From Hyphomicrobium sp. (GTDB taxonomy: Bacteria > Pseudomonadota > Alphaproteobacteria > Rhizobiales > Hyphomicrobiaceae): a stretch of 64,000 bases of DNA. The notes beneath the pieces are model-generated. The model was not told where the DNA came from. It did not search any database and was given only the letters and a program-made list of their open reading frames with translations. Below are positions 2,254-15,903 of the stretch, piece by piece (the stretch's first letter is position 1; each line of letters starts with the position of its first letter). The translations under genes were made by a program, and so were the position numbers. The stretch lies in NCBI RefSeq assembly GCF_003987855.1, contig NZ_RXIZ01000008.1, positions 196,853-260,852 on the forward strand, written 5' to 3'.

Positions 2254-3091
2254 GCTCGCTTTTGAGGCGCGTGAACTGCTCGTCTGTCATCTGGCCGTTC
2301 GACGCCGCATAGACGAGCGCGCCTGATGGCCTGGCGGAATTGTCGAGCAGCGCCTTGTTCCAGCCCGAGGCCGTGTTGTGAATGTCGATCGCGGTGGCCG
2401 CGGCCTCGATCGGGCTCATGCCGTAGTGATCGTTGATTGGATGAAAGAGTTTCAGGTGAAGGATCGGCCGCACGCCTTCGACGGCGTCGTCGATGAAGCG
2501 CACGCTTCGTCCGCAGACGGTGTATTCGTAGCCTTCGGGCCAACCGTCGAGCCCAGGGATCACCTTCATGCGGTCGGGACGCAGGATGTGCAGCTCGCGC
2601 AGCTCGCCGTCGAGCGCGACGGCTTCCGCGTAGGCGTTGCCCGAGACGAGCAGGAAGCCGTACCAGGCTTCGAGGAAATCGGTGCCGGTGTGATCGAGGC
2701 TCGGCCGCCGGAGCAGCCCGATCAGCGGATGATCCTCGATCTCGGTCGTGCCCTCGTAGAGGAGCAAGGGGATCGAGGCGGCGGCCTCCGCTATCATGCG
2801 CACGCAGCGATAGACGATGGCATTCTGCATGAAGCCTTCGCGGGCGAAGGCGGCGTAGTCACGCGGCGCCCACACGGGCTCGCCGAGTGTGTGATAGGCG
2901 ATGAGAGGGCCTACACTGCTTCCCTTCTTTTCCCCGCGAGGCGAATCTTTGATTGTGCCCGGCGACTCTCCTCCGTCGAGCCGACCGCCGGGCACGGGCG
3001 TGTTGAAAGAGTCTTCGAACATATTCGGCGACTCGCGTGGCAACAAGGACTCCGGCAGCCAGCGCGCTAGCGTTTCCGAGATCAGCGACAT
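2054..3091 (-). pseudogene. HK97-type portal protein, frameshifted and truncated
   Basis: The first ~290 residues are a phage/GTA portal protein: LGEPVWAPRDYAAFAREGF, the YRCVRMIAEAAASIPLLLY helix, DHPLIGLLRRPS, SGNAYAEAV, LRPDRMKVIPG and HPINDHYGMSPIEAAATAID are typical. After NFQGAR (about 2226-2236) the reading frame is lost; the homologous continuation (AGRPLLLEGG...) is found in the frame of the next open frame, so one base has been gained or two lost. The far C-terminus is missing because of the fusion to the GH108 gene. The N-terminal 45 residues contain a 41-bp palindrome (2955-2995) translated as a low-complexity Pro/Gly stretch. A portal forms the DNA entry vertex of the capsid; this copy cannot do so. 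Confidence 0.85.
2955..2995. repeat. 41-bp palindromic element, copy A (in portal gene)
   Basis: Perfect 10-bp inverted repeat GTGCCCGGCG / CGCCGGGCAC around a core with GACTC and GAGCC. It shares its exact length and the core GCGACTC...GAGCC(G/A)(G/A)CCGC with four other copies between 4354 and 5040. It lies in frame within the N-terminal region of the portal gene, in a part that carries no conserved portal motif. On the minus strand it is followed by an A-rich tail (AATCAAAGATTC) that other copies partly share. Confidence 0.85.
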
Positions 3092-3277: not shown

Positions 3278-4744
3278 TCAAAGCATCCGTACCGATGGCT
3301 TGGTCGTATCGCTCAAGAGCAAGTCAGTGATGGCCCAGACGAGCGCGTCGGCGCGATCGGGGCTGCGGCCGCGCATCGTGCCATCGGCGCCGAACGAACA
3401 CATCTGATCTTCCAGCGCATCGAAGCGCCCGACGTGCGCCACGCGGCCTTCGGCGTAAAGCGCGGCGACCGGCTCGGCGCGAACCCATTTTCCCCGCGTG
3501 GCGCGAACCTTCACGACGGGGAAATTCTCGCGAAATCGCTGCAGCACGGAGATCACGAGATCGCCGCCCTGATTGACTTCCGCCACCATGCGGTCGGCTT
3601 CGAAATCATCGAACGCGCCCAGCGCCGCATGCGCCCAGACTTCCGGCGTTCGTCCCTGGATCGTGCGATCGGCAAGAACGTAGGCTCGTTTGTCGACGCC
3701 CAAACCGGCGACGACAATTCCACACGCGTCCGATGACGCCGTCGCGGTGACGGGCGGATCGAGCGCGACGACGATGCGCTGCATGTCGGGCGTGGTTTCG
3801 ACGCGCGCTTCCTCGATCCAGTGCCGGCGCCAGAGGCCATCGCTGGGGTCCTCGACGATCTCACCCAGGAGTTCCTGGCGGCCGATCGCGGAGCCCGCAT
3901 AGCGGCGCGTCATCTCGGCCAAGAACGATGGCGCGAGGTTCATCGCATTGTCCGCTGTCGCAAGGTTGACGGTCACGGTCGCTTCGTCCGCCATGATCTG
4001 CTTCAACAGCTTCGTCGCGCGCGGCGTCGTCGTCACGCACATGCGCGGCGCATCGCCAAGACGGAGCGCGAACTGCAGCATGTCCCACGCCTTCTCCGCG
4101 CCGCGCCACTTGGCGAGTTCATCGCACCACGCGGCGGTGAACTGCGGACCGCGCAGTGCTTCGGCTTCATCGGCCGAGAACAGCTCCGCGATGGCACCGT
4201 TCGGCCAGGTCAGGCGACGCTTCGAAGGTTTGAACTCGGGCCGCTCGTGCGCCGGATGGATCGCGAGCAGACCGGATTGACCTTCGATCATGACGTTGCG
4301 AACGTCGGCGAGCGTTTTGCCCACGAGCGCTATTCTTGGTGAGTCTTTTGTTTGTGCTCGGCGACTCCGCTCCGCGGAGCCGGCCGCCGAGCACGCGCTT
4401 GCATCTTCGGCACGGGCCACGGAGCGTATCCACTCGGCGCCTGCCCTCGTCTTGCCGGAACCGCGGCCGCCGAGAAGCAGCCAGACTCTCCATGCTTTTG
4501 CGCCTTGCGACTCTGCTTCGCAGAGCCGGCCGCAAGGCGCGGCCTTGTTGGGCGAGTTTTGCGCAACATCGAGCGCACCGGGCGGCTGGCTCCCCGCAGG
4601 GGAGTCGCCGGGTGCAATCGATAAGGGCGCCAGCTGATCGTCGCGGGCCCAGATTTCCCAGTCGTGCGCGATGAAGTGCAGCTCTTCGCGCGTCAACTCA
4701 TTCAGATCGTCGGACAGACGCCCGCTTGCGATTGAGGCGCTCAA
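3278..4744 (-). CDS. Large terminase subunit (TerL, GTA/phage DNA packaging ATPase-nuclease)
   Basis: The packaging motor. The N-terminal ATPase has Walker A LLLGGRGSGKTRAGAEW, an ELFSADEAEALRGPQF segment and Walker B AAWCDELAKWR; the coupling segment CVTTTPRATKLLKQI follows. The C-terminal nuclease carries VVALDPPVT, AEVNQGGD and DRADALVWA, giving the expected Asp residues. The sequence resembles the large terminase of alphaproteobacterial GTAs. Three 41-bp palindromes (4354, 4500, 4575) are translated inside the N-terminal half without breaking the frame, adding Ser/Ala/Arg-rich inserts on both sides of Walker A. TTG 4744 with GGAA eight bases upstream is the chosen start; the frame stays open to 4807, but that would overlap the small terminase gene more. 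The ATPase could still be intact, although the neighbouring portal is broken. Confidence 0.85.
   Translation of the reverse strand: MSASIASGRLSDDLNELTREELHFIAHDWEIWARDDQLAPLSIAPGDSPAGSQPPGALDVAQNSPNKAAPCGRLCEAESQGAKAWRVWLLLGGRGSGKTRAGAEWIRSVARAEDASACSAAGSAERSRRAQTKDSPRIALVGKTLADVRNVMIEGQSGLLAIHPAHERPEFKPSKRRLTWPNGAIAELFSADEAEALRGPQFTAAWCDELAKWRGAEKAWDMLQFALRLGDAPRMCVTTTPRATKLLKQIMADEATVTVNLATADNAMNLAPSFLAEMTRRYAGSAIGRQELLGEIVEDPSDGLWRRHWIEEARVETTPDMQRIVVALDPPVTATASSDACGIVVAGLGVDKRAYVLADRTIQGRTPEVWAHAALGAFDDFEADRMVAEVNQGGDLVISVLQRFRENFPVVKVRATRGKWVRAEPVAALYAEGRVAHVGRFDALEDQMCSFGADGTMRGRSPDRADALVWAITDLLLSDTTKPSVRML
4354..4394. repeat. 41-bp palindromic element, copy B (in terL)
   Basis: Perfect 10-bp ends GTGCTCGGCG / CGCCGAGCAC with the shared core GACTC...GAGCCGGC. 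It lies in frame in terL a short way after Walker A and encodes an Ala/Ser/Arg-rich insert (ACSAAGSAERSRRAQ). The A-rich tail on the minus strand (AAACAAAAGACTC) closely matches that of copy A, so the mobile unit may be about 53 bp. Confidence 0.85.
4500..4540. repeat. 41-bp palindromic element, copy C (in terL)
   Basis: Perfect 10-bp ends GCGCCTTGCG / CGCAAGGCGC, core GACTC...GAGCCGGC, same orientation as copies A, B and E. It lies just before the Walker A region of terL and encodes the segment around KAAPCGRLCEAESQGAK. Only 34 bases separate it from copy D. Confidence 0.85.
4575..4615. repeat. 41-bp palindromic element, copy D (in terL, inverted)
   Basis: Same 41-bp unit in the opposite orientation. 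The ends GCACCGGGCG / CGCCGGGTGC pair with one mismatch, and the core reads GGAGTCGCC on the plus strand. It encodes APGDSPAGSQPPGA near the terL N-terminus. Its presence in either orientation argues for a mobile or copied element rather than chance composition. Confidence 0.8.
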
Positions 4745-5270
4745 GACGTTCCGCAATTTCGCGGCGTAGGTCTTCCGCATGGGCGAGCGCCTCCTTGTTT
4801 TTGGCATCTCCTCCCGATGTCTTCCGCTTCGTCATCTCGCGTTGCATCTCAACGGCTTTCTCCAATGCGTTGACCATCTGCGACAGAGCCCGCGAGGCGC
4901 GCTCGCGATCCTGGGACGTGAGCCCCTTTTGCTTCTCGAGCTTCGTCAGCTCGCCGTCGATCGTGTTGTAGACACGCTGAACGAGGGATTTTTTTGTTGG
5001 CGCTCGGCGACTCGCGTTCCGCGAGCCGGCCGCAGCGCGCGGGCTTGGATCTTCTTCCGTCGGAGCAGCTGATTGTTCGGCCACCTTCGTAGCCTTCGCG
5101 GCTTTCGTCGGCGGCTTCGTTTCCGCGTGATCGTCGCGTGCGGTCTTCGCCGCCGTGCTGGAGCGCGAAGCCGTGCGCCGCGCCGCCGACTTTGCTGCCG
5201 CCGAGCGATCCTCCTTCGTCGAGCCCGTCGCTCGGCGCGCAGAGTTCGCAGCGCGTGGGCTTGCCGCCAT
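4698..5270 (-). CDS. Small terminase subunit-like protein
   Basis: A 190-residue protein directly upstream of terL and overlapping its start. The N-terminal half is Ala/Lys/Thr-rich and low complexity; the C-terminal part (about 110-190) is strongly helical and charged (KSLVQRVYNTIDGELTKLEK, SQDRERASRALSQMVNALEK), as in oligomerising small terminase subunits. ATG 5270 is preceded by GGAAGG at good spacing; the frame is open to GTG 5345, but that codon lies in the putative promoter element. A 41-bp palindrome (5000-5040) is inserted between the two halves. In an alternative frame, bases about 5230-5331 encode a Cys-containing CGSSTIRK...CELC peptide, so an old frameshift near the N-terminus is possible. 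The role is inferred mainly from gene order. Confidence 0.6.
   Translation of the reverse strand: MAASPRAANSARRATGSTKEDRSAAAKSAARRTASRSSTAAKTARDDHAETKPPTKAAKATKVAEQSAAPTEEDPSPRAAAGSRNASRRAPTKKSLVQRVYNTIDGELTKLEKQKGLTSQDRERASRALSQMVNALEKAVEMQREMTKRKTSGGDAKNKEALAHAEDLRREIAERLERLNRKRASVRRSE
5000..5040. repeat. 41-bp palindromic element, copy E (in small terminase gene)
   Basis: Same length and core (GGCGACTC...GAGCCGGCCGC). The outer arms GCGCTCGGCG / CGCAGCGCGC have decayed and pair only partly. The minus-strand tail AACAAAAAAATCCC again is A-rich. It encodes a Pro/Arg/Ala-rich linker (SPRAAAGSRNASRRAPTKKS). Confidence 0.75.
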
Positions 5271-5335
5271 CCGCCGCCACCTTCCGAATTGTGCTGGAGC
5301 CGCAGCGTGCGACGGAGCGGCTGAGCCGCAAATCC

Positions 5336-5363
5336 CGTGTCTCACACTTTCCGCATTATACAG
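5336..5363 (-). promoter_or_regulatory. Promoter-like element upstream of terminase genes, shared with the gafY-like gene
   Basis: On the minus strand this reads CTGTATAATGCGG followed by AAAGTGTGAGACACG, ending 65 bases before the chosen small terminase start. About 23 of 27 positions match the sequence at 14740-14766 in front of the gafY-like gene (CTGCATAGCGG, then GGAAGTGTGAGCCACG). TATAAT resembles a -10 box, but no good -35 is present at normal spacing, as expected for an activator-dependent promoter. The role is an inference. Confidence 0.45.
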
Positions 5364-5481
5364 GAATGATGCCCGAGAAGCGTCGCGCTGTCAACGGGAA
5401 AAACGATCCAACTCATTGAATTTATTTTATAAAATCAAAGGCCGCAGCAAAATCTTTCCATTATAATTTCGCGCAACTCGG

Positions 5482-5498
5482 CGGGGATAAGTTTTTTC
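5482..5498 (-). promoter_or_regulatory. DnaA-box-like motif upstream of terminase genes
   Basis: Plus strand GCGGGGATAAGTTTTTT; minus strand AAAAAACTTATCCCCGC, containing TTATCCCC, close to the DnaA box TTATCCACA. The same 17 bases occur exactly at 14661-14677 and, inverted with one change, at 14717-14731, both just upstream of a gene whose product has a DnaA domain IV. It could be an activator site; the ribosome-distal position (about 210 bases before the start) allows that. Confidence 0.45.
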
Positions 5499-5580
5499 GC
5501 TGCGAACGAGCATGGCGTCGAACACTGGCATCCTCCGCACAAGCCCGGGATGACATCGTTCGGTCGGCTCGCGTTGAGCG

Positions 5581-6066
5581 CTACTCCGCAGCGGGACGGG
5601 CCCGCTCGGCTTCCTCGGGGAGGTCGGGGATGATGTACTTCCAGTAGTTCTCCTGCTTCACGCGGCGTTCGCTCATGGCGAAGCTGCGAACGGAGATTCC
5701 GGCCTGGTGCACGGTTTCGGGCGTTCCCGAGACGAGCGGATGCCACCAGGGGAGATCGCCCCCTTCCCCGACGATGCGATAGGCGCAGGTCTTGGGCAGC
5801 CACGACAGCTCGCGGGCACGCGCTATGTCGATTTCCAGGCAATCGGGCATCTTGAGGAAGCGGTTGGGATAATCCTTGCAGCGGCAGGTGCGCACATCGA
5901 GCATGCCGCAGGAAAGCCGCGTCAGATAAATCTCGGCCGTGTCTTCGTCCTCGAGCTTGACGAGGCAGCAACGCCCGCAGCCGTCGCACAGAGCTTCCCA
6001 CTCCTCGCGGCCCATCTGTTCGAGGGTTTTCGTGCGCCAGAACGGTGGATCGTTGCCGTCCAACAT
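5581..6066 (-). CDS. YcgN-family cysteine cluster protein (UPF0260)
   Basis: A 161-residue protein of the YcgN/YkgJ type, marked by an N-terminal [19 protein letters not shown] and the cluster CDGCGRCC, then [11 protein letters not shown] and DCLEI. These Cys residues probably bind zinc or an iron-sulfur centre; the biochemical role of the family is not known. ATG 6066 is chosen because GGAAGGGAAG lies about 10 bases upstream; the frame is open to 6108. It is a single gene between the terminase promoter region and the divergent PBP gene. Confidence 0.85.
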
Positions 6067-6281
6067 CAGGTGTTGCTCTTCCCTTCCGCCCGCTCTCGGG
6101 ATAACCACAATTTTGTCGACTTGCGACGCCTAACGTCCGCAAACTAACCACGGCGGCGCGTTCGGTGGAGCGCGTCGCAATTGGTGTTGCGAATAAGACT
6201 CGCAGTAAAGGGCTTAAGCCCGCGTCTCACTTGTGACAAGAGCGACTTAATGAGTTCGGCGCGGGCAAGGGGTAGCGCTTT

Positions 6282-8609
6282 TTGAACGACTGGTTCCACA
6301 AGCAGGGCGGCAGGGATCGCTTCATCGACTGGCTGGCGCTTGATTCCAAGATCAACGCGACGCTGGGAGAGGCTTGGTCGCGGACGAAGGATTATTGGAA
6401 CGCTGGCTCGAGCTATTTCGCGCGGTTCCAGCTCGTCGGGTGGCGGCGACTGCTCAACGAGTTCGCCTCAGAAAGTCTGACGATGCTGTTCGGCGGTTTC
6501 GTCGTTCTGTACGGGCTGGCGCTGCCCGCCTTCCAGGAGTTCGACGAAAGCAAGTTCCTGACCGGCCGCTACGCGGTGAAGTTCCTCGACATCAACGGCA
6601 ACGAGATCGGCAAGCGCGGCATCCTTCACAACGACTCCGTCCCCTTGAGCGAGATCCCGGATGTGCTCATCAAGGCGACGCTCGCGACCGAGGATCGCCG
6701 CTTCTTCGAACATTACGGCGTCGACGTGCTGGGCACGATGCGCGCGCTCGTCACCAACGTGCAGGCCAATGAGGTCGTGCAAGGCGGCTCGACGCTGACG
6801 CAGCAGCTGGCAAAGAACCTGTTCCTCTCGTCGGAGCGATCGCTCCAGCGAAAGGTCAAAGAGCTGTTTCTCTCGTTCCTGCTCGAGAGTCGATATTCCA
6901 AGCGCGAAATCCTAAAGCTCTATTTTGACCGCGCGTATATGGGCGGCGGCACGTTCGGAGCGGAAGCTGCCTCGCAGTATTATTTCGGCAAGTCGGTCCG
7001 CGACATCAACATGGCGGAAGCGGCGGTGCTCGCCGGACTGTTCAAGGCGCCGACCAAATATTCGCCGCTCGTCGATCTTGCGGCATCACGGGCGCGCACC
7101 AATCAGGTGCTCGATAACCTCGTCGAGGCGGGCTACTACACCGCCGGCCAGGTGCACGCGGCGCGAATGAACCCGGCGAAGATCGTCGAAGCGCGGGCGT
7201 CGGCCAGCCCAGACTGGTTCCTCGATTGGGCGTACGAGGAAGTGCAGCGCATCGCCGACGGCAAGAACCAATTCGTGCTGACGGCGCGTACCACGGTCGA
7301 CCTCACGCTGCAGCGGCAAGCTGAAGAAGCGCTCGCCGCCGCGCTGCGCAAGGAAGGTCGCGACAATCATTTCAGCTCAGGCGCCATCGTCGTCACCGAG
7401 ACGGACGGACGGGTGAAGGCGATCGTCGGCGGTCCGGATTACGGCGAGAGCCAGTTCAACCGCGCGACGCACGCCAAACGCCAGCCGGGCTCATCGTTCA
7501 AGATCTACGTGTACGCGGCGGCGATGGAGAACGGCTATACGCCCGAGACGATCGTGCGCGACGCATCGCGGTCATGCGGGAACTGGTCGCCCTCGAACTA
7601 TGGCGGCGGTGGCGGCTCGGGCGCGCGCATACCTTTGTGGGAAGCGCTGGCGAAATCCTTGAACACCGTCGCGGCCGAACTTTCCTTCGCGGTCGGCCGC
7701 GAGAAGGTGATCGAGATGACGAAGCGGCTCGGCATCGAAGGCGTGAAGAAGACGTGTTCGATGGCGCTCGGCGACGGCGGCATCACGGTGCTCGAACACA
7801 CGGGCGGCGTGGCGACGTTCGCCAACGGTGGAAAGTACGCCAAGCCTTACGGCATTCTCGACATCACCACATCCAAGGGCGACCTGCTCTATTCCCGCGA
7901 GCGCGATGAGCCTCCGCCGCGCCAGGTCGTGTCGCGGCATGTCGCGGAAGAAATGAACGTCATGCTCAATCGCGTCGTGACGCAGGGCACCGGCGGCATG
8001 GCCAATCTCGATTTCACCAACGTTGCCGGCAAGACGGGAACCTCGACCGGTCCGAAGGACGCTTGGTTCATGGGCTTCACCGGCAAGTACGTGGCCGGCG
8101 TCTGGCTCGGCAACGACGACAACCGGCCGATGCGTGCCGGCGTGACCGGCGGCCATCAAGCAGCGCCGGTTTGGCACGATCTCATGACGGTCGCGCACGC
8201 CGACATGAATATCCCGACGATCCCTGGATTGCCCCCGCATCCGCGTCAGGTGGAAGAGCAGCAGCGCCTGGCCGAGGTTCGGGCGCAGCAGGTCGCCGCG
8301 GGTCTTACGCCGGCGCAGACCGATGCATCCAAGCCGCCGAGTGTGATGCCGTCCAAGACGCGCGACGCCTTGAAGATGCTCGTCAGCGCGCTGCGCAAAG
8401 CCAACGGCGAAGCTCCCGCGGCTGTCACGCCGGCCGGCGGCGGCGAGCCTTCGCGCGTTCCGCAGCCTGACGATCCTAAGCAGGCGCCGCAACCCGCGAC
8501 GCGCCCCGATCGCCGCGCTACGCTCTTCGATACCTCGCACGACGACCTTTCGATGCCGGCAGCCGCGCCGCCGTCCGGTGGGCGGACCTCGGCGACGGCG
8601 GTGCCCTGA
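6282..8609 (+). CDS. Class A penicillin-binding protein (PBP1A type)
   Basis: A bifunctional peptidoglycan synthase. One membrane helix (about 65-85) is followed by a glycosyltransferase 51 domain with the catalytic E137 in TEDRRFFEHYG and GGSTLTQQLAKNLFLS. The transpeptidase domain has the SSFK box (serine near residue 404), an SLN motif and KTGTS (near 584). The C-terminal 130 residues are Pro/Ala/Gln-rich and low complexity. It acts at the periplasmic face of the inner membrane, polymerising and cross-linking glycan strands. The start is TTG 6282, with AAGGGGT upstream and no nearby ATG. 775 residues is within the range for the family. The downstream DUF1214 gene follows after 28 bases. 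Confidence 0.92.
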   Translation: MNDWFHKQGGRDRFIDWLALDSKINATLGEAWSRTKDYWNAGSSYFARFQLVGWRRLLNEFASESLTMLFGGFVVLYGLALPAFQEFDESKFLTGRYAVKFLDINGNEIGKRGILHNDSVPLSEIPDVLIKATLATEDRRFFEHYGVDVLGTMRALVTNVQANEVVQGGSTLTQQLAKNLFLSSERSLQRKVKELFLSFLLESRYSKREILKLYFDRAYMGGGTFGAEAASQYYFGKSVRDINMAEAAVLAGLFKAPTKYSPLVDLAASRARTNQVLDNLVEAGYYTAGQVHAARMNPAKIVEARASASPDWFLDWAYEEVQRIADGKNQFVLTARTTVDLTLQRQAEEALAAALRKEGRDNHFSSGAIVVTETDGRVKAIVGGPDYGESQFNRATHAKRQPGSSFKIYVYAAAMENGYTPETIVRDASRSCGNWSPSNYGGGGGSGARIPLWEALAKSLNTVAAELSFAVGREKVIEMTKRLGIEGVKKTCSMALGDGGITVLEHTGGVATFANGGKYAKPYGILDITTSKGDLLYSRERDEPPPRQVVSRHVAEEMNVMLNRVVTQGTGGMANLDFTNVAGKTGTSTGPKDAWFMGFTGKYVAGVWLGNDDNRPMRAGVTGGHQAAPVWHDLMTVAHADMNIPTIPGLPPHPRQVEEQQRLAEVRAQQVAAGLTPAQTDASKPPSVMPSKTRDALKMLVSALRKANGEAPAAVTPAGGGEPSRVPQPDDPKQAPQPATRPDRRATLFDTSHDDLSMPAAAPPSGGRTSATAVP

Positions 8610-8637
8610 ACACGGATGCGATAGGAACCCAGCGACC

Positions 8638-9294
8638 GTGGCATCGATCGAAGCCAACTCCCCAGTAGCCCCGACGCGATTGAGCGTCGTGCGCGCGATC
8701 ATCGCGATCCTCGTACGCGCCGTCACCGTGCTGATGGTGCTCGCGCTCGCGATCGCGACCGGCCTTTGGACAAGCCGATACATGATCGATCGCGGCTCGC
8801 CGCTTTCCTCCGACATGTACGGTCCGTGGCAGCAATGGCGCGATATCGGCCGCGAGAGCGCCGACCCTTATACGAAGGCGCACATGATCGCCACCGGCAA
8901 GCTTCGCATTTCCGCCGACAGCGCCGGTGTGTTCGAAGCGAAAACGGATTCGCAAGGCGCGCGACTTCACTCGTCGTGCAATTACATCATCGACGGCGCC
9001 AACATGCGCGGACTGTGGTGGAGCCTCGCCGTGTTCGACGCGCGCGGCAACCTCATCCACAACGACGCCGACCGCTACGAGTTCACGGCCGATACCATCG
9101 CGCCCAGTCCGAACGGATCGTTCGTGGTTTCGCTCGGACGCGACGCGAGGCCAGGCAACTGGCTGCCGACGAGCGGTGCGGGCCGTCTCGTCCTCGTCTT
9201 CACGGTGCTCGATCCGGCGACCGGCCTTTCCGCCGAAGAGCGCGCGGAGCGCAACAAGCATCTGCCCATCATCAAGCGCGAGGGCTGCTCATGA
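8638..9294 (+). CDS. DUF1214-domain membrane-anchored protein
   Basis: A 218-residue protein with one N-terminal membrane helix (about 18-42) and a periplasmic DUF1214 domain (YNYIID-like NYIIDGANMRGLWWSLAVFD, SFVVSLGRD, NWLPTSGAGRLVLVF). GTG 8638 is the start, with AGGAA ten bases upstream; the frame itself is open further back into the PBP gene. It overlaps the next gene by ATGA, so the two are coupled. DUF1214 and DUF1254 domains often occur together, fused or adjacent, in proteobacteria; their function is unknown, although cell-envelope location is clear from the signal anchor. Confidence 0.8.
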   Translation: MASIEANSPVAPTRLSVVRAIIAILVRAVTVLMVLALAIATGLWTSRYMIDRGSPLSSDMYGPWQQWRDIGRESADPYTKAHMIATGKLRISADSAGVFEAKTDSQGARLHSSCNYIIDGANMRGLWWSLAVFDARGNLIHNDADRYEFTADTIAPSPNGSFVVSLGRDARPGNWLPTSGAGRLVLVFTVLDPATGLSAEERAERNKHLPIIKREGCS

Positions 9295-9845
9295 AGCCGC
9301 TCAAGGGTTTCGACTGGCGGTTGCTCGCGATCTTCATCCTGCTCGCCGGGATCGTGCATCTCGTCGCCACCTTCCTCGCCGTGAACGACACGCGGCGCTC
9401 GGCCTATTCACGGCTGACGCAGGAATATCCGGCCAACACGATGACGATTGCCGACGCGGTCGCGCCTCAGCATCAGCCGCTGCCCTTCATGGCGCCGGAT
9501 GCGCGCTATGCGTTCTGTCCGTTCGAAACGAAGAACGGGACGATGCGGGTGCGCGCGCTGCTTCCGGATCTCGGTTGGACGGTCGGCGTGTATTCGCCGG
9601 ATGGAACCAACCTTTATTTCGCTGCAGCCTCAGCCGATCGGGAGACGACGATCGATCTGTCGATTGTGCCTTCCGACGATCGCTTCATGGGCCTTCCTGC
9701 GACGAGCGCCGGCGTCGATCCGCAGCAGACGATCGCGGCGGCAAAGGGATTGATCGTCGTGCGGGCTCCCGACAAGGGCGAGCCCTATCGCTCCGACGAA
9801 CTCGTCGCGCTTTCCAAGGCCTCGTGCCGACGCGACGGCGCGTGA
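9291..9845 (+). CDS. DUF1254-like membrane-anchored protein
   Basis: A 184-residue protein whose ATG overlaps the stop of the DUF1214 gene. It has a single membrane helix (about 12-32) and a compact extracytoplasmic domain with PLPFMAPDARYAFCPFETK and LGWTVGVYSPDGTNLYF. Tandem DUF1214/DUF1254 modules are common, so the two products probably form one envelope complex. No catalytic motif is recognised. The operon is PBP1A, DUF1214 and this gene on one strand. Confidence 0.7.
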   Translation: MKPLKGFDWRLLAIFILLAGIVHLVATFLAVNDTRRSAYSRLTQEYPANTMTIADAVAPQHQPLPFMAPDARYAFCPFETKNGTMRVRALLPDLGWTVGVYSPDGTNLYFAAASADRETTIDLSIVPSDDRFMGLPATSAGVDPQQTIAAAKGLIVVRAPDKGEPYRSDELVALSKASCRRDGA

Positions 9846-9955
9846 TTTCGGATTTCCCTTACGAGGCGCTGTATCGCGCTCTCCGTTCGCAACGGCGGCA
9901 GGCGTGAATTGCCTCGACACCCCATGCGAGCTTTAGATTTCAACTCGAGGCGTCG

Positions 9956-10144
9956 TCAGCTCTCGAGGTCGAGCTCGTCGCGATGACGCTTGGCTTTGCG
10001 CTGGTCTTCGACGTCGTCGCTGTGCCGCTCATAACGTACGCCGGGAAAGAAAACGATTTCCGCGGAGGCCGATGCATCGCACGCTGCAAGCACGGATGCG
10101 GCCGTCGGTCTCGGTGCAAATTTGAATTCCAAAATCGTTGCCAT
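9956..10144 (-). CDS. Small hypothetical protein
   Basis: A 62-residue frame beginning MATILEFKFAPRPTAAS, ending in a charged tail rich in Arg, Asp and Lys. ATG 10144 has GGGGG at suitable spacing; the frame is open to 10216. No domain is recognised. It stands alone between the DUF1254 gene and the DUF1491 gene. Whether it is a real gene depends on conservation in relatives. Confidence 0.4.
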   Translation of the reverse strand: MATILEFKFAPRPTAASVLAACDASASAEIVFFPGVRYERHSDDVEDQRKAKRHRDELDLES

Positions 10145-10349
10145 GCGCCATCCCCCAAGGGACGCGAAACTTAGCTCGCGCCGTACGGCATTCCCCGCCA
10201 TCAAGGCTCCCGCCACGGGATCACTGATTGCGAAACGGAGCGTGGCGAGTATGCGCTGCTGCCGTCAGAATCATCGCATCACTATGAATTAAGGTCGGCG
10301 TCGAGTTAATGGTTTGTAAACGCGAGACGAATGTTGGCGCCGACTGTTG

Positions 10350-10694
10350 CTATTTCATCAATTCATCGCCGAGGAAGTGGCGGCCTTCGCGATCCTCGAT
10401 TTCGACGACCCAGATGTCGCTATCGAAACTCGCTTCGCGACTGAGCATCGAATCCGCTTCGGCTTCCGGCACGAACTCGCTCTTGAAGCGCGGCACCCAA
10501 CGCCGGTCGATGTCGACTTCTTCGAGACCTGCGGGCGCCGGTGAAAATACCGCGGCCATTCTGTCTGCGCGCACGATCTTGATGAAGATGGCGCCGGCGT
10601 CGTCGTCGCCATGGCGCGCGATCACGCCATTGGCGCCGTTGTAGAGGCAGCGGCGCAGATAGGCTTTGACCCAGATTTCCGATTTCAGACGCAT
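10350..10694 (-). CDS. DUF1491 family protein
   Basis: A 114-residue cytoplasmic protein with the DUF1491 pattern: MRLKSEIWVKAYLRRC at the start, GANGVIARHGDDDAGAIFIKI in the middle, and a C-terminal WVVEIEDREGRHFLGDEL. The family is widespread in Alphaproteobacteria and has no established function. The gene lies 33 bases beyond the end of the upstream peptidoglycan-binding gene on the same strand, so the two may be cotranscribed. Confidence 0.85.
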   Translation of the reverse strand: MRLKSEIWVKAYLRRCLYNGANGVIARHGDDDAGAIFIKIVRADRMAAVFSPAPAGLEEVDIDRRWVPRFKSEFVPEAEADSMLSREASFDSDIWVVEIEDREGRHFLGDELMK

Positions 10695-10727
10695 CAGGCG
10701 ACGTTAGCAGGCGATGCACAAGAATCG

Positions 10728-11453
10728 CTAGCGCTTCGATGCTTTGGCGATCGCCTCGCGCCGCGCCTTGGGTTCGCTCTGGAGGCGAAGCAGACGGCTT
10801 TCCATCGGACCGGAGATGCGGCCGGTGGGCTTCAATTTCTGGTCCGTCTCGAATTCGCGGATGGCGCGCGAGAACTCCGGCGTCAGGGCTGAGCCCGTCA
10901 CGCCCGTCTGGTAGCCAAGCGCGGAGAGCTGCTGCTTCACCGTGCGAACGAAGCTTTCGCCATCGGGCGACATGGTCTTGCCCGGTCGCGCGGCGTTCGG
11001 CGGCAAGGACGAACTGCCGAGAATGAGCTGGCTCAAGAGCTGATCGCTCGGCTGGCCGGTGAGCACGAGGCCGTTGTCGTATTCGTAGGCGAAGATCGCG
11101 GCACGCGTGACGAGTCCCAGCACGCCGTCGGCAGGACCTGCCTCGTAATTGATGTTGTTGAGTTCGCGCTGGACGCCCTTGGTGATGTCGGCGCGGTCGG
11201 AATCGTCGCTGACGCTCAGCGGTCCGGGCGGTAGAGGCGCGGCATCAGCGGTTTGTGCCGCACCAGGGCCGGGCGCCGTCGGACCGAGTGACAAACCGGG
11301 GCCATCGACCCACGAAGTCCGGTCGGTGATCCCGCCCGTCTCGATCGCGCTGCCTTTGCCGCCGGTGTTCTGGAAGACGAGCATGTTCAGAGCCACGCTT
11401 GTCGTTGCAAGCAACGACAGGATAGCTGCGAGCTTTCGATCCCTTTCGGTCAT
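10728..11453 (-). CDS. Peptidoglycan-binding domain protein, membrane anchored
   Basis: A 241-residue protein with an N-terminal membrane segment (about 9-27), a Pro/Ala/Gly-rich linker and two peptidoglycan-binding type 1 domains: QRELNNINYEAGPADGVLG...TRAAIFAYEYDNGL and QQLSALGYQTGVTGSALTPE...AIREFETDQKL. It probably ties a complex or itself to the cell wall. No enzyme domain is present. It is followed by the DUF1491 gene. Confidence 0.75.
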   Translation of the reverse strand: MTERDRKLAAILSLLATTSVALNMLVFQNTGGKGSAIETGGITDRTSWVDGPGLSLGPTAPGPGAAQTADAAPLPPGPLSVSDDSDRADITKGVQRELNNINYEAGPADGVLGLVTRAAIFAYEYDNGLVLTGQPSDQLLSQLILGSSSLPPNAARPGKTMSPDGESFVRTVKQQLSALGYQTGVTGSALTPEFSRAIREFETDQKLKPTGRISGPMESRLLRLQSEPKARREAIAKASKR

Positions 11454-11713
11454 GCTGCGGCCCGTCCCTCTTTGCCCCCGCCCGCGAGTATCGCGGCCAG
11501 CCGTTAAGACCTCCTTAACTCTCGAAATAAACCAGACGGAATGCGCGCACTAAATCCCGTAAAATTTGAAGTAAATCCGCTTCAAATTGCGGGTCGTGGG
11601 CTAGCTTAACCTTGATGCGCGGCTGGTATGGATGAGCGTAGAGGGAACGGCCTCGTTCAATCCGCTTCACGTGCCGGGGACATGCCCGGCCGTCAGACGC
11701 GAAGGTTTGTGTC

Positions 11714-12106
11714 ATGGGTTTGTTGCGTTTAGCCACCGTCGCCGCGATCGCGATCGCACTGCTTCCTTCCGACAAGGAACAGCAGCAGCGGCTTTATCAG
11801 CGTGCGGGCGACACCGCCGAGTGGGTCGTCACCTTCTGCGATCGAAACGCCACTGTTTGCGCGAAGAGCGCCGAGTTGTGGACCCAATTCGTCGCCAAGG
11901 CGCAGTTTGGCGCTCAGCTCGCCTATGATATGGCGCGCGAGCGTTACGCGAATTCAGGATCTATGAGCAACGCGAGCCTGCGTCTCGACGACACGAACGG
12001 GACGACCGTTGCTCCCGCGGTGCTCGAGCGCGACAGCGGCACTCTGACGCCCTTCGACAAAGCGGCGGACTGGCGCGGCAAACGCGCACCCCACAACGGC
12101 ATCTAA
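11714..12106 (+). CDS. DUF5330 family protein
   Basis: A 130-residue protein starting MGLLRLATVAAIAIALLPSD, with a short hydrophobic N-terminus and a central helix containing WVVTFCDRNATVCAKSAEL. The two Cys residues six apart are typical of this alphaproteobacterial family, of unknown function. The C-terminus ends with PFDKAADWRGK. Single gene, transcribed towards sufE. Confidence 0.7.
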   Translation: MGLLRLATVAAIAIALLPSDKEQQQRLYQRAGDTAEWVVTFCDRNATVCAKSAELWTQFVAKAQFGAQLAYDMARERYANSGSMSNASLRLDDTNGTTVAPAVLERDSGTLTPFDKAADWRGKRAPHNGI

Positions 12107-12211
12107 AGCCAGTTCTGGTCGGGCGCCTGCTCCGGCCTTGCTCTCTCCCCGCCCTGCGACCTATGTGTAAGGTGAACGATCCGCTAACGCGGATCATGCT
12201 GGGCGTTTCGC

Positions 12212-12643
12212 ATGACCATTGAAGATATCCGCGCCGACTTCGCGATGCTCGACGATTGGGAAGATCGTTACCGCTACGTTATCGAGCTCGGCCGCGCGCT
12301 GCCGCCTCTCCCCGCCGAGTTGAAGACCGACGCCAACAAGGTGCGCGGGTGTGCCAGTCAAGTGTGGCTCGCGACGAAGCGCAGCGGCAATCCCGATGAC
12401 CCCAAGCCCAGCGATAAGCTCGAGATGCAGGGCATGAGCGATGCCCACATCGTGCAGGGCCTCATCGCGTTGCTCTTCATCATCTACGAGGGCAAGACGC
12501 TGGACGAGATCCTGAAGACGGATGCCGAGGGAATCTTCGCGAGCCTCGGACTGAAGGAACACCTGACGCCACAGCGATCCAACGGGCTTGCCTCGATGAT
12601 GAAGCGCATCAGGTCCGACGCCTCGGAGATGCTCGCGGCGTAG
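12212..12643 (+). CDS. sufE: Cysteine desulfuration protein SufE
   Basis: A 143-residue sulfur acceptor. SufE takes persulfide sulfur from SufS and passes it to the SufBCD scaffold for iron-sulfur cluster assembly. Typical features are DDWEDRYRYVIELGRALPPL, the active Cys C47 in KVRGCASQVW, and LIALLFIIYEGKTLDEI. The length matches the family. It stands apart from a suf operon here, as is common in rhizobia. Confidence 0.92.
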   Translation: MTIEDIRADFAMLDDWEDRYRYVIELGRALPPLPAELKTDANKVRGCASQVWLATKRSGNPDDPKPSDKLEMQGMSDAHIVQGLIALLFIIYEGKTLDEILKTDAEGIFASLGLKEHLTPQRSNGLASMMKRIRSDASEMLAA

Positions 12644-12664
12644 GGCCCGGCCTTTTTCGAACAC

Positions 12665-12735
12665 GCTGAAGAGGCCGCTTGGTAGAGCTCAGTTTGCGGC
12701 TCTGGATGGCCGCTCGAGGGCGGCCATGGAGTTTT
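12665..12735. repeat. Direct repeat, left copy (relic of a GIY-YIG gene end)
   Basis: Bases 12665-12713 are identical to 13285-13333, exactly 620 bp away, and the match continues with a few differences to 12735/13356. In the right copy the first 21 bases are the last codons and stop of the GIY-YIG gene (AEEAAW, stop). The left copy therefore looks like the 3' end of a lost second copy of that gene. A perfect 8-bp hairpin (ATGGCCGC / GCGGCCAT, 12706-12727) lies inside. The surrounding 12644-13011 holds no other gene. Confidence 0.85.
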
Positions 12736-12890
12736 TTGGCAGGTCAGTGGAAGTCGGCGCCCCAGTGTCTGAGAGCCGCAACGTGAATGATTGTTTCAAC
12801 GTCCCTCGCGGCATTGCTCATTGCCGGTGCGTCTCGGAGCGGCAATCCGGGATTGCTGTCACTTCGCACACTCTCACTCTCACTTCCACT

Positions 12891-12939
12891 TCTCACTTCT
12901 CACTTCTCACTTCTCACTTCTCACTTCTCACTTCTCACT
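12891..12939. repeat. Tandem heptamer repeat (TCTCACT x7)
   Basis: Seven perfect copies of TCTCACT, with imperfect copies on both sides. A degenerate version (TTCTCACTCC) occurs at 13496-13508 after the right-hand direct repeat, so the tract belongs to the larger duplicated block. Such a tract is prone to slippage and lies about 75 bases before the GIY-YIG start. Confidence 0.9.
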
Positions 12940-12974
12940 TCTTGCATTCTCTCCTTCGTGCCTTCCATCACTCC

Positions 12975-12997
12975 ATGGCCGGGCTCGACCCGGCCAT
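12975..12997. repeat. Palindrome in front of GIY-YIG gene
   Basis: Perfect 9-bp stem ATGGCCGGG / CCCGGCCAT with loop CTCGA. Palindromes that would read MAGLDPAI in translation are, from memory, frequent intergenic repeats in Rhizobiales, often near GIY-YIG genes. It lies 14 bases before the GTG start of the nuclease gene and could form a hairpin in its leader. Confidence 0.7.
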
Positions 12998-13011
12998 CCA
13001 GGGCGCACCCC

Positions 13012-13305
13012 GTGAGCGAGCAGTTTTACGTTTACATCATGGCCAACAAGCGCAATGGGACGATCTACATCGGCGTGACCAACAATCTTGCCCGCCGCGT
13101 CTATGAGCACGCCAACAGCCTCGTTCCCGGCTTCACCTCCCGCTACGGACTGAAGATGCTCGTGTACTACGAAGTCTTCGATTCCATTTCTCTGGCGATC
13201 CAGCGCGAAACCAGTCTCAAACGCTGGCCCCGGCGTTGGAAGCTCGAGCTGATTGAAAAGACAAACCCGCAATGGAAGGATTTGGCTGAAGAGGCCGCTT
13301 GGTAG
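13012..13305 (+). CDS. Small GIY-YIG nuclease (UPF0213-like)
   Basis: A 97-residue single-domain GIY-YIG protein. It begins SEQFYVYIMANKRNGTIYIG, giving the two signature strands YVYIM and IYIG, then the conserved Arg in NNLARRVYEHANS and the late Glu in IQRETSLKRWPRRWK. It probably binds and nicks DNA, but no partner domain indicates a target. GTG 13012 is the likely start; the open frame further upstream runs through repeat DNA. The gene is bracketed by direct repeats and preceded by a palindrome and heptamer tract, which suggests copying as a cassette. Confidence 0.85.
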   Translation: MSEQFYVYIMANKRNGTIYIGVTNNLARRVYEHANSLVPGFTSRYGLKMLVYYEVFDSISLAIQRETSLKRWPRRWKLELIEKTNPQWKDLAEEAAW

Positions 13306-13356
13306 AGCTCAGTTTGCGGCTCTGGATGGCCGCCTCAAGGGCGGCCATGGAGTTTT
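13285..13356. repeat. Direct repeat, right copy
   Basis: Right-hand partner of 12665-12735, overlapping the last seven codons of the GIY-YIG gene. Contains hairpin ATGGCCGC / GCGGCCAT at 13326-13348. Weaker similarity to the left flank continues to about 13505 (GTCTCGGA, CACTTCGCACACTC), so the original duplicated block was probably over 200 bp. Confidence 0.85.
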
Positions 13357-13538
13357 GAGGGTAGGCACTATGGGGGATCTCCCCGTCGTGTCTTGAAGTT
13401 CAGCGCCTGCGGTATGCTCCACGCGGCCTGTCTCGGATGGGCATTCCGAGGTTGCTGCCGCTTCACACTTCGCACACTCCATACGTCGTTTTACACTTCT
13501 CACTCCTTACCTCGAGCGCGCGCGGTCTGGAATGCGGT

Positions 13539-14114
13539 TCAACCGGCGCCGTCGATCTCGGGGCGATAGTCGCTCGCGCCCCAGTGGCGGATGCGGACGG
13601 GCTGATCGCGCGTCTCGCTTGCAGCGGGAGGGACCATGCCGTAATGGCGCGCAAGCTGGCGCAGCGCGATCTGCAGAATGATCTTACCGGAACGCTGCGG
13701 CCAGCCGCTTGCCTTCTCGCTCGCCTCCAATCCCTTCAGATGGCAGCACACGTCGATCAGTACACCGGCGAGATCGGGGCCGACCGCCGCAAGCGCCCGC
13801 TTCACGCGCTCTTTCGCAGCAACTACGGAATCGCGAATGTCGGGTCCAATGTCGGGAGCGCCCTTGCCGCCGCCACCACCCGAAAGCAGCAGCGACCAGT
13901 TCGCCGTTGTCCTCGGCGTCATCTGCGCGAACCAGAAGTCGGCACGCAGCTTTTCCCCCGCATCGAACTCGGCGTCGGCGAGCATCGGCTGGCCGTCCTT
14001 GTCCCTGCGGCGCGCAAGCCAGGCGAGCGGACTTTCGGCGAGATTACGGTGCGGCGCTGCTGCTTCCTCGCAGGTGCGCGCGGCTGCGCGGCGGCGAGCG
14101 GATTTCATAGCCAT
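13539..14114 (-). CDS. DUF6456 protein, GafZ-like (putative GTA activator subunit)
   Basis: A 191-residue protein whose middle matches the DUF6456 pattern: ESPLAWLARRRDKDGQPML, AEFDAGEKLRADFWFAQMTP and TANWS, followed by helices with KERVKRALAAVGPDLAGVL and a final QIALRQLARHYG that resembles a sigma-type helix-turn-helix. A Gly-rich loop (LSGGGGGKG) interrupts it. The gene overlaps the end of a DnaA-domain gene. In Caulobacter, GafY (DnaA-like) and GafZ together turn on GTA genes; in Rhodobacter the single protein GafA does this. The pairing, order and domains fit, but the orthology is inferred from memory. ATG 14114 has GGGGAAC upstream; ATG 14108 is an alternative. Confidence 0.65.
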   Translation of the reverse strand: MAMKSARRRAAARTCEEAAAPHRNLAESPLAWLARRRDKDGQPMLADAEFDAGEKLRADFWFAQMTPRTTANWSLLLSGGGGGKGAPDIGPDIRDSVVAAKERVKRALAAVGPDLAGVLIDVCCHLKGLEASEKASGWPQRSGKIILQIALRQLARHYGMVPPAASETRDQPVRIRHWGASDYRPEIDGAG

Positions 14115-14632
14115 TCGTGTTCCCCGGTTCTTGTGGAGGCGCGCAAGCGATCGCGACTGGGCACGCGGAGGACCAACGTCGGCAGAGCCCAACTCAGCAG
14201 GTCGAGTGCACGATCGAAGTTCGGATCGTCGCGGCGATATTCGACCTTGAGACAGGCATGAGAGACCGTCGTCCGGTCACGGCCGAACATCGCGCCGACC
14301 TCGGTCAAGGTCATTCCGCAGCAAACATGCGCAAGGTACATCGCGACCTGGCGTGCTTCGGCGATATCGCGAACACCGCGCGTTCCATGCCAAAGGCCTT
14401 CCGCATCGACACCGAAAACCGTCGATATCGCAAGGTCGATTGCCAGGCGCCTTTCATCCTGACCGAAGTGGGCAGGCGCTTCGGCAGAAGCGGCGGACAA
14501 GTGGCGCATCTTGCGCGCCGCGGATAGCGAAGCACGAAACATCATTCCTTCCCGGAGACCGAGAGCCTCTCGCTCTTTCCGCTTCTCCGCGGCGTGCGCG
14601 CTCTCTCTCATCGTTCGTTGCAGCTGTGACAT
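14105..14632 (-). CDS. DnaA-domain-IV helix-turn-helix protein, GafY-like
   Basis: A 175-residue DNA-binding protein. Residues about 85-150 form a DnaA domain IV: ARQVAMYLAHVCCGMTLTEV, then GAMFGRDRTTVSHACLKVE. In DnaA this segment reads the DnaA box, with the basic RDRTTVxHA helix contacting DNA. The rest is a charged N-terminus without the AAA+ ATPase, so it is not a replication initiator. It forms an overlapping pair with the DUF6456 gene, as in the GafY/GafZ GTA activators. Two TTATCCCC motifs, which resemble DnaA boxes, lie directly upstream (14661-14731), and one lies upstream of the terminase genes, so autoregulation and GTA control are reasonable hypotheses. Confidence 0.75.
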   Translation of the reverse strand: MSQLQRTMRESAHAAEKRKEREALGLREGMMFRASLSAARKMRHLSAASAEAPAHFGQDERRLAIDLAISTVFGVDAEGLWHGTRGVRDIAEARQVAMYLAHVCCGMTLTEVGAMFGRDRTTVSHACLKVEYRRDDPNFDRALDLLSWALPTLVLRVPSRDRLRASTRTGEHEWL

Positions 14633-14660
14633 CGCGGGAAGAATACGGGCGCCTCAAAGG

Positions 14661-14731
14661 GCGGGGATAAGTTTTTTTCCGACGCGCCCGTTCACCTTAG
14701 TCGCGCGGGGCGGCAGAAAAGTTATCCCCGC
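14661..14731. promoter_or_regulatory. Inverted pair of DnaA-box-like motifs before the gafY-like gene
   Basis: GCGGGGATAAGTTTTTT at 14661-14677 and the inverse AAAAGTTATCCCCGC at 14717-14731, facing each other over 39 bases. The first is identical to the motif at 5482-5498. They lie 29-99 bases before the start of the DnaA-domain gene, a good place for an autoregulatory operator. Confidence 0.5.
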
Positions 14732-14739
14732 TCCGGGCG

Positions 14740-14766
14740 CGTGGCTCACACTTCCCCGCTATGCAG
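14740..14766 (-). promoter_or_regulatory. Promoter-like element shared with the terminase operon
   Basis: Plus strand CGTGGCTCACACTTCCCC then GCTATGCAG; about 23 of 27 bases agree with 5336-5363. On the minus strand it lies upstream of both TTATCCCC motifs and 108 bases from the gafY-like start. It may be a promoter or an activator-binding site common to both operons. Confidence 0.4.
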
Positions 14767-14913
14767 AAACGCGTTCCGAAAAGAGACAGAGCAACGCTGA
14801 CGCACGCAGTGCACAGCGATGTTCGCAATTCAGAGTCCAGTTGCTGGCTCGACCTCGTCAGAATTTTACCGGTTTGGCCGAAAGATCTGAGCGATCGCTC
14901 GCCGGCCGGGCGA

Positions 14914-15141
14914 ATGCACCTAATCGCGATCATCGAGCGGGAAGTGCGCAAGGAGCGGCGCCTCGGTAACGCGGGCAGCCATTCGTACGACCTCGCCCGG
15001 CATGCGAAGCTCGCGCGCCTCCTGAAAGGGGAACGTCGCGACCTGGTGGCCCTTCATCGCAAGGAGCAATGCGCAGCAGCCTATCGAGATGCAACAAGAC
15101 GCGCGCGTTCGGTCCGGTTCACCGCACTTCAGAGTGAATAA
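14914..15141 (+). CDS. Hypothetical protein
   Basis: A 75-residue basic frame with MHLIAIIEREVRKERRLGNA and a helical, Arg/Lys-rich remainder ending in ALQSE. The frame is open back to ATG 14761, but that part overlaps the promoter-like element, so the later ATG is preferred. It reads like a small helical DNA-associated or structural protein, but no domain is recognised. The divergent position relative to the gafY-like gene may be chance. Confidence 0.35.
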   Translation: MHLIAIIEREVRKERRLGNAGSHSYDLARHAKLARLLKGERRDLVALHRKEQCAAAYRDATRRARSVRFTALQSE

Positions 15142-15156: not shown

Positions 15157-15564
15157 TCAGCGCTCACGCCGGGTGCCAAGGCCCATCTTCTTGGCGAGCT
15201 GAGAGCGCGCGTTGGCGTAATTCGGAGCCACCATCGGATAGTCGGGCGGCAGGCCCCATTTCTCCCGATACTCTTCCGGCGACAAGTTGTAGTGGGTGCG
15301 CAGGTGCCGCTTCAGCGATTTGAACTTCTTGCCGTCTTCAAGGCAAATGATGAAGTCCGGCATGACGGATTTCTTGACGGCGATCTTGGGTTTGGACTCG
15401 TCGCGCTCGGGCTGGACCGTCCGCCCCGCCGCCCGGCTCAAAGCCGCATGCGTCTCGGCGATGAGGTTTGGAAGCTCGTTCGAAGCGATTGAATTGTTGC
15501 TGACGTAGGCGGCGACGATCGTTGCCGTGATGGTCACGAGCTCAGGCGGTCCCGAACTATCCAT
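15157..15564 (-). CDS. MucR/Ros-family zinc-finger transcription regulator
   Basis: A 135-residue regulator. The N-terminus (ELVTITATIVAAYVSNNSIA, SNELPNLIAETHAAL) is the oligomerising part, and the C-terminal half carries the Ros-type zinc finger C...H-x(3-4)-H in FIICLEDGKKFKSLKRHLRTHY followed by LSPEEYREKWGLPPDYPMVAP. MucR/Ros proteins bind AT-rich DNA with repeated T-A steps and control exopolysaccharide, motility and virulence genes. ATG 15564, with GGAAG nine bases upstream, gives the family's usual length; the frame is open to 15621. Confidence 0.88.
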   Translation of the reverse strand: MDSSGPPELVTITATIVAAYVSNNSIASNELPNLIAETHAALSRAAGRTVQPERDESKPKIAVKKSVMPDFIICLEDGKKFKSLKRHLRTHYNLSPEEYREKWGLPPDYPMVAPNYANARSQLAKKMGLGTRRER

Positions 15565-15903
15565 GCGCTTGTCTTCCGCTTCTTCCGCCGGCCGATAACC
15601 GGCCCCCGACCGTCCGTCCATATCGACATTCCGCCGCTGCGTCTCTTCCGAGAATGGCCGATAGTGATCTTTACGTTACGAGCGCAATTCGAGCGTTCAA
15701 CTCCGCTCCACTTGCGAAAGCTTTGACTACAGGACGCCAGCATTGTCAATCGGACCTCAAAAGTAGATTACGACATTGCTAATTCTTGAGGATAGCCCCA
15801 CTTCATTTGATCATTACTGCGACACTCCCGGCGTGTTGACGCATTTGCTTCGGCGGCCGAGAACCGTCTCGCCCCGTAACCAAGCTTGAAGGTAATCAGC
15901 CCG

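Follow-up and report, generated by a model that had tools for sequence, protein, structure and literature searches.

A DnaA-box-like element in the -35 place of the gafY and terminase promoters of Hyphomicrobium, a candidate operator of GafY

Genes and promoter elements at the locus

We analysed a stretch of 64,000 nt from Hyphomicrobium sp. (assembly GCF_003987855.1, contig NZ_RXIZ01000008.1, positions 196,853-260,852 of the forward strand), called the window below, which carries gafY, encoding a DnaA domain IV protein, and the packaging genes of a gene transfer agent (GTA), among them the small terminase gene terS. An earlier note, made from the letters of this DNA alone, had proposed that GCGGGGATAAGTTTTTT, repeated upstream of gafY and of terS, is bound by the DnaA-domain regulator, and that a second shared element lies in the same two upstream regions. 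The features on which these proposals turn are the following.

5483 to 5490, minus strand: terminase-promoter element TTATCCCC, kept in 11 of 11 aligned genomes, with an A-tract at 5491-5496
5460 to 5465, minus strand: -10-like TATAAT of the terminase promoter (TATAAT, TATACT, TATCAT or TAGACT in relatives)
14663 to 14670, minus strand: gafY-promoter element TTATCCCC, with an A-tract immediately upstream; in the window, 12 of 12 nearest genus loci and 30 of 30 family loci
14640 to 14645, minus strand: -10-like TATTCT of the gafY promoter, with the ATG 7 nt later
14722 to 14729, plus strand: P0002-promoter element TTATCCCC, compared across 13 aligned sequences
14747 to 14752, plus strand: -10-like CACACT of the P0002 promoter, core of the supposed second-element copy at 14740-14766
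14105 to 14632, minus strand: gafY (P0001), DnaA domain IV protein (PF08299, 1e-16; synteny)
4698 to 5345, minus strand: terS (P0003), small terminase, named from its place beside terL and its conservation in relatives; the true start is likely near 5270
14761 to 15141, plus strand: P0002, a small conserved protein divergent from gafY, with homologues beside gafY in relatives

The exact copy of GCGGGGATAAGTTTTTT before gafY lies at 14661-14677, as the earlier note had it, and the terminase copy at 5481-5497, one base to the left of the 5482-5498 given there; the inverted near-copy was found at 14715-14731, with 2 mismatches to GCGGGGATAAGTTTTTT. When up to 3 mismatches were allowed, the window held 3 matches against 0.13 expected, a number reached by 0 of 100 shuffles. 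Read in the direction of transcription the element is AAAAAACTTATCCCCGC, and TTATCC[CT]C occurs just three times on both strands of the window, before the small terminase gene, before gafY and before the divergent P0002. At all three promoters a -10-like hexamer stands exactly 19 nt after TTATCC (TATAAT for terS, TATTCT for gafY and CACACT for P0002), so the remark that the spacing differs between the promoters fails for this element, and what had been read as an upstream operator is not free-standing and keeps a constant distance to the -10, in the place of the -35. If the hexamer is taken as the -10 (-12 to -7), TTATCCCC would span about -37 to -30, and since the start codons follow the hexamer by 7 nt (gafY) and 8 nt (P0002), both mRNAs may be leaderless. 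A mobile repeat ending at the element was also rejected, since the promoters of gafY, the terminase and a DUF2793 gene discussed below have only the promoter in common. Besides, the window (at 14684-14700) and most of the relatives have a TTCACC-type box between the divergent elements, and in 24 family genomes GTTCAC comes straight after TTATCCYC; the box is possibly the site of a second regulator or a second half-site.

The second element was not retained. The letters at 5336-5363 (CGTGTCTCACACTTTCCGCATTATACAG) and 14740-14766 (CGTGGCTCACACTTCCCCGCTATGCAG) reach the claimed 23 or so matches only with two gaps in a hand alignment, the gapless core having 15 of 17, and their score, which none of 1000 shuffles of these regions attained, was equalled in 6 of 2000 pairs of stretches drawn at random from the window. 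When the two regions were aligned with relatives, 5336-5363 proved to be the end of a minus-strand terminase-leader block found in all 11 sequences aligned, though less well kept in L128, the most distant of them. On the plus strand, 14740-14766 proved to cover the start codon of P0002 and its -10, and the 12 relatives share no more than fragments of this stretch. The two stretches lie on opposite strands and are no element common to both promoters; on the random-pair score and the alignments we reject a shared element and take the likeness as coincidence. The leader block was delimited from the alignment of 11 sequences.

5336 to 5395, minus strand: terminase leader block (TTGACAGCG...TGTATAATGCGGAAAGTGTGAG)

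It holds TTGACA followed by a short palindrome, AGCG-N3-CGCT, and may be an antitermination element, a second promoter element or a site of GafZ, which we offer only as a lead.

Conservation upstream of gafY and of the terminase

Upstream of gafY the element is conserved well beyond the genus. The exact element was present in the window and at the 12 nearest gafY loci of the genus, and over these 13 loci mean pairwise identity reached 1.00 for the element and 0.91 for the -10, the flanks staying at 0.33-0.48; each of the 13 gafY loci put to this profile matched, and as their contexts were chosen by patterns that hold the element, its identity is partly by construction. In 30 of 30 family loci, these being the best 30 of the 85 genomes with a match, the coding strand carried TTATCC[CT]C no more than 420 nt from the matched domain. 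The pattern TTATCCYCNCCGTTCAC was found in 24 of 99 genomes, belonging to other genera of the family, once in each and each time just upstream of the gafY match position, with 0 control matches. For the Alphaproteobacteria at large we counted 77 of 80 named gafY loci, leaving out 3 with less than 300 nt upstream; TTATCCCC stood upstream of gafY in 55 of the 77, on the coding strand in 51, where other stretches of these loci gave an expectation of 0.28. Ten one-base variants of it were each found in between 0 and 7 loci (expectation 0.27 to 1.0). After thinning to less than 65% identity in the DnaA domain, 19 of 30 loci still carried it. The distance to TAnnnT after the gafY-upstream sites was 19 nt in 26 of 60 and 20 nt in 7 of 60, every other offset from 15 to 31 nt being taken by at most 2; the sequence logo of these sites used 59 of the 60, one being dropped as it holds N. 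This conservation and spacing are the strongest sign of the putative autoregulation. A search in the order of Maricaulis found TTATCC upstream in 16 of 30 loci, an ambiguous result as it often lay within a TAGGA...TCCTA palindrome. A TAGGAA-type sequence, perhaps a repressor site, was also seen to adjoin or follow the gafY element in Stappia, Maricaulis and others (L158, L161, L164, L167, L168, L174, L186).

The terminase promoter is likewise conserved in relatives that have terS. The window and 10 further genomes, 11 of 11 aligned, have [CG]TTATCC[CT]CG with a -10-like hexamer 19 nt after TTATCC, and a twelfth genome, G046, where both terS and terL have been lost, still shows the box, though without this -10 behind it.

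Four genomes that might have served as natural controls were set aside. The supposed gafY pseudogenes of G081 and G092 proved to have their in-frame TGA codons upstream of the real start. G095 and G097 appeared to hold the box without gafY; in the former contig C394 (6,797 nt) ends inside gafZ, and in the latter contig C124 (7,040 nt) has MucR sequence and ends about 50 nt past the start of a gafY-type promoter element, so gafY was most likely lost to assembly gaps.

Genome-wide occurrence and the reader of the box

In its own genome the window's pattern GGGGATAAGTTTTT had 12 exact copies against 0 for the reversed pattern, and 29 against 9 with up to 2 mismatches, while AAACTTATCCCCGC occurred in 30 of 99 family genomes with up to 13 copies each, the reversed control giving one match over all 99. 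We combined box and -10 into a composite, TTATCCYCG-N16-YANNNT, with the reversed pattern as control, and obtained 20 sites in the own genome, where the control gave 1, and 127 in ten genomes of the genus, where it gave 6; in other genera the counts were 3 (G017), 0 (G075), 0 (G065) and 3 (G050), against 0, 0, 0 and 1 in the controls. Of 63 exact sites, 59 have the conserved A of the -10 and 57 its conserved T. The earlier note had held that occurrence at many unrelated promoters would speak against a binding code: the composite, at about 20 sites, is specific when set against its controls, but several sites precede genes without an evident GTA role, so that this objection stands in part.

The regulator itself has the predicted DnaA domain IV, matched by PF08299 over residues 67-130 of 175 amino acids (aa) with 61.1 bits against a cut-off of 31.5. 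It fits the GafY (HdaB) family by its DnaA domain IV helix-turn-helix without the other DnaA domains, and by its neighbours, since gafZ (DUF6456) lies directly downstream and mucR and sufE are nearby. The gafA-like genes of Hyphomicrobiales are described with the same gafZ/mucR/sufE synteny in the portions available of PMC9638019. The neighbours in the window are the following.

13539 to 14192, minus strand: gafZ (P0004), DUF6456 (PF20057, 3.3e-52), longest frame, the true start may lie inside
15157 to 15621, minus strand: MucR-type regulator, conserved neighbour (PF05443, 2.2e-51)
12212 to 12643, plus strand: sufE, conserved neighbour (PF02657, 2.2e-44)

P0002, for which the model is an all-helical four-helix protein (mean pLDDT 82), had no match in Pfam or NCBIfam and one weak match of unknown function in PHROGs (E 0.068).

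The box resembles the DnaA box (TTATCCACA), as had been noticed: TTATCC is kept and its reader domain would be of the same family, with the differences that position 7 changes from A to C and position 9 from A to G, that the box has a fixed promoter position and that it precedes different genes; where a DnaA box would read TTATNCACA, the window has TTATCCCCG. All 26 aligned GafY proteins have RDRTT at the start of the helix, and an alignment to 1J1V (DnaA domain IV) places the E. coli helix opposite the GafY profile LTEVGRLF-GRDRTTVAHAC. By our own count, among the base-contact residues of DnaA that the consulted parts of PMC5043019 and PMC7561715 name, GafY keeps R432, D433, T435 and H439 and changes P423 to T, H434 to R and L438 to A or S. 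The arginine at the place of DnaA H434, R120 in GafY, fits the change of TTATCCAC to TTATCCCC, which is suggestive and not proof; it would help to explain how TTATCCACA became TTATCCCCG, and thus offers a possible residue-to-base explanation.

We consider that A-N-TTATCC[CT]CG is probably the operator of GafY, as the DnaA-domain-IV activator of the gene transfer agent. Most likely, GafY would act at the -35 through this box of DnaA descent: the operator, mostly 19-20 nt before a TAnnnT-type -10, would replace the -35, and GafY placed there, with a putative contact to sigma, would regulate its own gene and activate the packaging genes. Activators that lie over the -35 and contact sigma region 4 are familiar from lambda CI and T4 MotA. 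The likeness is an operator on the -35 joined to a housekeeping -10, and the difference is that the GafY fold is unrelated and the sigma contact putative. A close likeness is to Caulobacter crescentus, where GafY (HdaB) is a DnaA-domain activator encoded beside GafZ; according to the accessible parts of the two reports, it acts on its own promoter, the GTA cluster, a tail-fibre gene and dispersed promoters, working at weak -35 regions with the housekeeping sigma (PMC11150451, PMC9632790). Its binding sites there are gafYZ, the GTA promoter and 18 others, and it interacts with RpoD, through domain 3-4 of which it is proposed to aid degenerate -35 regions (PMC11150451). The GafA protein of Rhodobacter capsulatus is described in the available text as having the same two domains, regulating itself and activating the GTA (PMC9638019, PMC6363796). 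The parts seen of the two Caulobacter studies derive no GafY binding motif (PMC11150451, PMC9632790), and no printed one was found in the literature searched. The conserved 8-mer at a fixed promoter place would thus be a direct, falsifiable code for a protein otherwise without a derived motif, and would allow the GTA regulons of Alphaproteobacteria to be predicted from sequence.

Several points weigh against GafY as the reader. TAnnnT at 15-31 nt is lacking in 22 of the 60 gafY-upstream sites, and the P0002 copy reads TTATCCCCG in only 5 of its 13 aligned sequences (ATATCCCCG in 6, AAATCCCCG in 1 and TTATCCACG in 1). Some targets look like host genes (CysS, DegP). By analogy, two known systems would also speak against it. 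The mapped GafY site of Caulobacter, YBE, is placed far upstream, at -123 to -113, with IBE and ZBE elements and a need for IHF in the portion consulted of PMC11150451, whereas here the 8-mer lies in the -35 place, 19 nt from the -10 at the three window promoters; and in R. capsulatus the two domains are fused in one protein, autoregulation is reported to run through the GafZ-like C-terminal half of GafA and not the DnaA-like half, and the conserved promoter element reported in the part available is a CtrA site (PMC9638019). Terminase loci elsewhere (29 of 30 genomes with a match, one matched twice, giving 30 loci) carried TTATCC[CT]C on the coding strand within about 1.5 kb in only 4 of 30 (L202, L203, L205, L226), so the packaging-gene half appears as a feature of this family. 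The binding code that had been proposed is therefore broad for gafY and, for the terminase, found mainly within this family; the link of the two loci is real, deeper than was claimed for gafY and narrower for the packaging genes.

To see what else stands behind the box, we clustered 112 composite sites from the fetched stretches of 16 genomes of the window's genus (g1) and one other; as sites were sampled by exact patterns, the genome counts per target are lower bounds. The recurring targets were gafY in at least 14 genomes and the small terminase in at least 9, both besides the window's own genome, a large secreted protein in at least 8, a DUF2793 protein, a protein of 143-149 aa, a membrane protein and DegP in at least 7 each, P0002 and CysS in at least 5 each and a YejA-like protein in at least 4, others being found in 2. 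The DUF2793 protein of the own genome matches PF10983 (7.3e-35), a family that we take to be the GTA tail fibre; the names CysS, YejA-like and secreted protein of alpha-2-macroglobulin type are presumed, from our own reading or recall, and those of DegP and the endopeptidase mentioned below are based on Pfam. A tail-fibre homologue is reported as strongly up-regulated by gafYZ in Caulobacter in the part consulted of PMC9632790. The sites fall into two sub-classes, one with an A-tract (gafY, DUF2793 and the RNAs described below) and one with little or no A-tract and an extended -10 (DegP, CysS, YejA-like).

Such targets are what would be expected if the element were the -35 or a class II activator site of a wider regulon, under an alternative sigma or an envelope or stationary-phase regulator, and another protein read the box. 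We hold this unlikely, although CysS, DegP, the large secreted protein, the YejA-like protein and a murein endopeptidase are among the targets in several genomes of the genus, and although the host-gene class lacks the A-tract and has the extended -10. The -10 is of the housekeeping type, the contiguous genomes G075 and G065 of other genera are without any composite site, and TTATCC[CT]C was found before cysS in 0 of 30 loci from 29 other genomes (G041 and G099 gave the same match), of which 12 of the 14 named have the box at gafY. Since cysS lacks the box at all 30 loci elsewhere and gafY has it in 55 of 77, the gafY copy is ancient, as autoregulation predicts, and the host targets are either later additions or belong to another regulator using the same box.

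That GafZ (DUF6456), with its sigma-like helix-turn-helix, reads the box is more doubtful still. The GafZ-like C-terminal half of R. capsulatus GafA binds its own promoter (PMC9638019, as far as available), and the GafZ element of Caulobacter is a palindrome between -35 and -10; the same report, in the part at hand, gives GafZ one target against about 20 for GafY (PMC11150451), so a dispersed box fits GafY better, and the box is DnaA-box-like while the DnaA domain is in GafY and not in GafZ. Host DnaA, reading the box as a weak site like the W-boxes of Caulobacter, is very improbable: the W-box consensus TCCCCA is indeed described as binding DnaA very weakly in the accessible part of PMC4285127, but TTATNCACA occurs in 1 and TTATCCAC in 2 of the 77 gafY upstream regions against 55 for TTATCCCC, and by our own reading of the sequence host DnaA keeps its usual RDHTTVLHA helix. 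Chance, or a promoter feature of a general kind that no particular protein reads, describes the second element well enough and is refuted for the first by the composite counts (20 against 1 and 127 against 6) and by 55 of 77 gafY loci against 0.28 expected, which leaves it next to no credit.

Particle-gene remnants, candidate RNAs and minor observations

The GTA genes of the window are a remnant. Besides terS, which had no match in curated families, two features were found.

3278 to 4807, minus strand: large terminase terL (PF03237, 2.9e-29; PF17289, 5.5e-24)
1264 to 3091, minus strand: remnant portal-GH108 hydrolase, the portal in two frames, 2054-3091 and 1264-2253

Homology to the portal ends at residue 398 of the 662-residue portal of G085 and is followed by residues 169-433 of the GH108 hydrolase; in G094 this junction falls within a single open frame. 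A search confined to the window and 14.9 kb to its left turned up no capsid, protease or tail genes, and in place of a complete RcGTA-type cluster this stretch thus has only terS, terL and part of the portal. Among 15 g1 genomes compared, ten keep the gene run as far as fetched (G076 only to the contig end) and five have deleted clusters with four junctions between them, one common to G000 and G094, one in G098 (terL 258 to g15 614), one in G096 (terL 359 to g15 226) and one in G046 (no terS or terL, g15 from 1180). All five keep an open gafY with the element before it, and composite sites remain in number (20 in G000, 13 in G094, 20 in G098 and 6 in G046). We tentatively suggest, giving it somewhat less than an even chance, that GafY, an activator from a domesticated phage, has turned host regulator in Hyphomicrobium, its DnaA-derived operator recruited in place of the -35 to about 20 promoters including those of three families of structured, multi-copy RNAs and of envelope genes, in a regulon that outlived the particle genes through at least four different deletions. 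Since gafY and its element persist where the particle genes are gone, one may ask what role GafY has in the host.

The RNA families come from 27 further element sites, which form clusters of 12, 11 and 4 whose downstream sequences show homology that begins at the element and extends for about 350-440 nt in the better pairs, for 60-120 nt in the remainder. They lie in differing intergenic places with no single coding gene common to all (L066, L068, L080, L090, L106 and others). Alignments were built from 9 of the 12 sites of cluster A, from 6 of the 11 of cluster B with 2 from G095, and from 3 of the 4 of cluster C with 1 from G095. Family B had compensatory changes in 26 of 80 predicted pairs, and family A, too conserved to judge, in 5 of 63. 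At gathering score Rfam found only 3 tRNAs and 1 fluoride riboswitch over 14 loci and none at the RNAs, and an E-value search with one family A copy gave two miRNA matches on the other strand, far below gathering. The three families, each sequence being about 300-440 nt long, are probably structured, apparently non-coding and transcribed.

A penicillin-insensitive murein endopeptidase (Peptidase_M74, L108:3787-5301), a candidate for lysis, stands behind the element in this genome and in G085. An interspersed repeat of about 95 bp (L065:12542-12637) was also seen, with copies on many contigs of G095.

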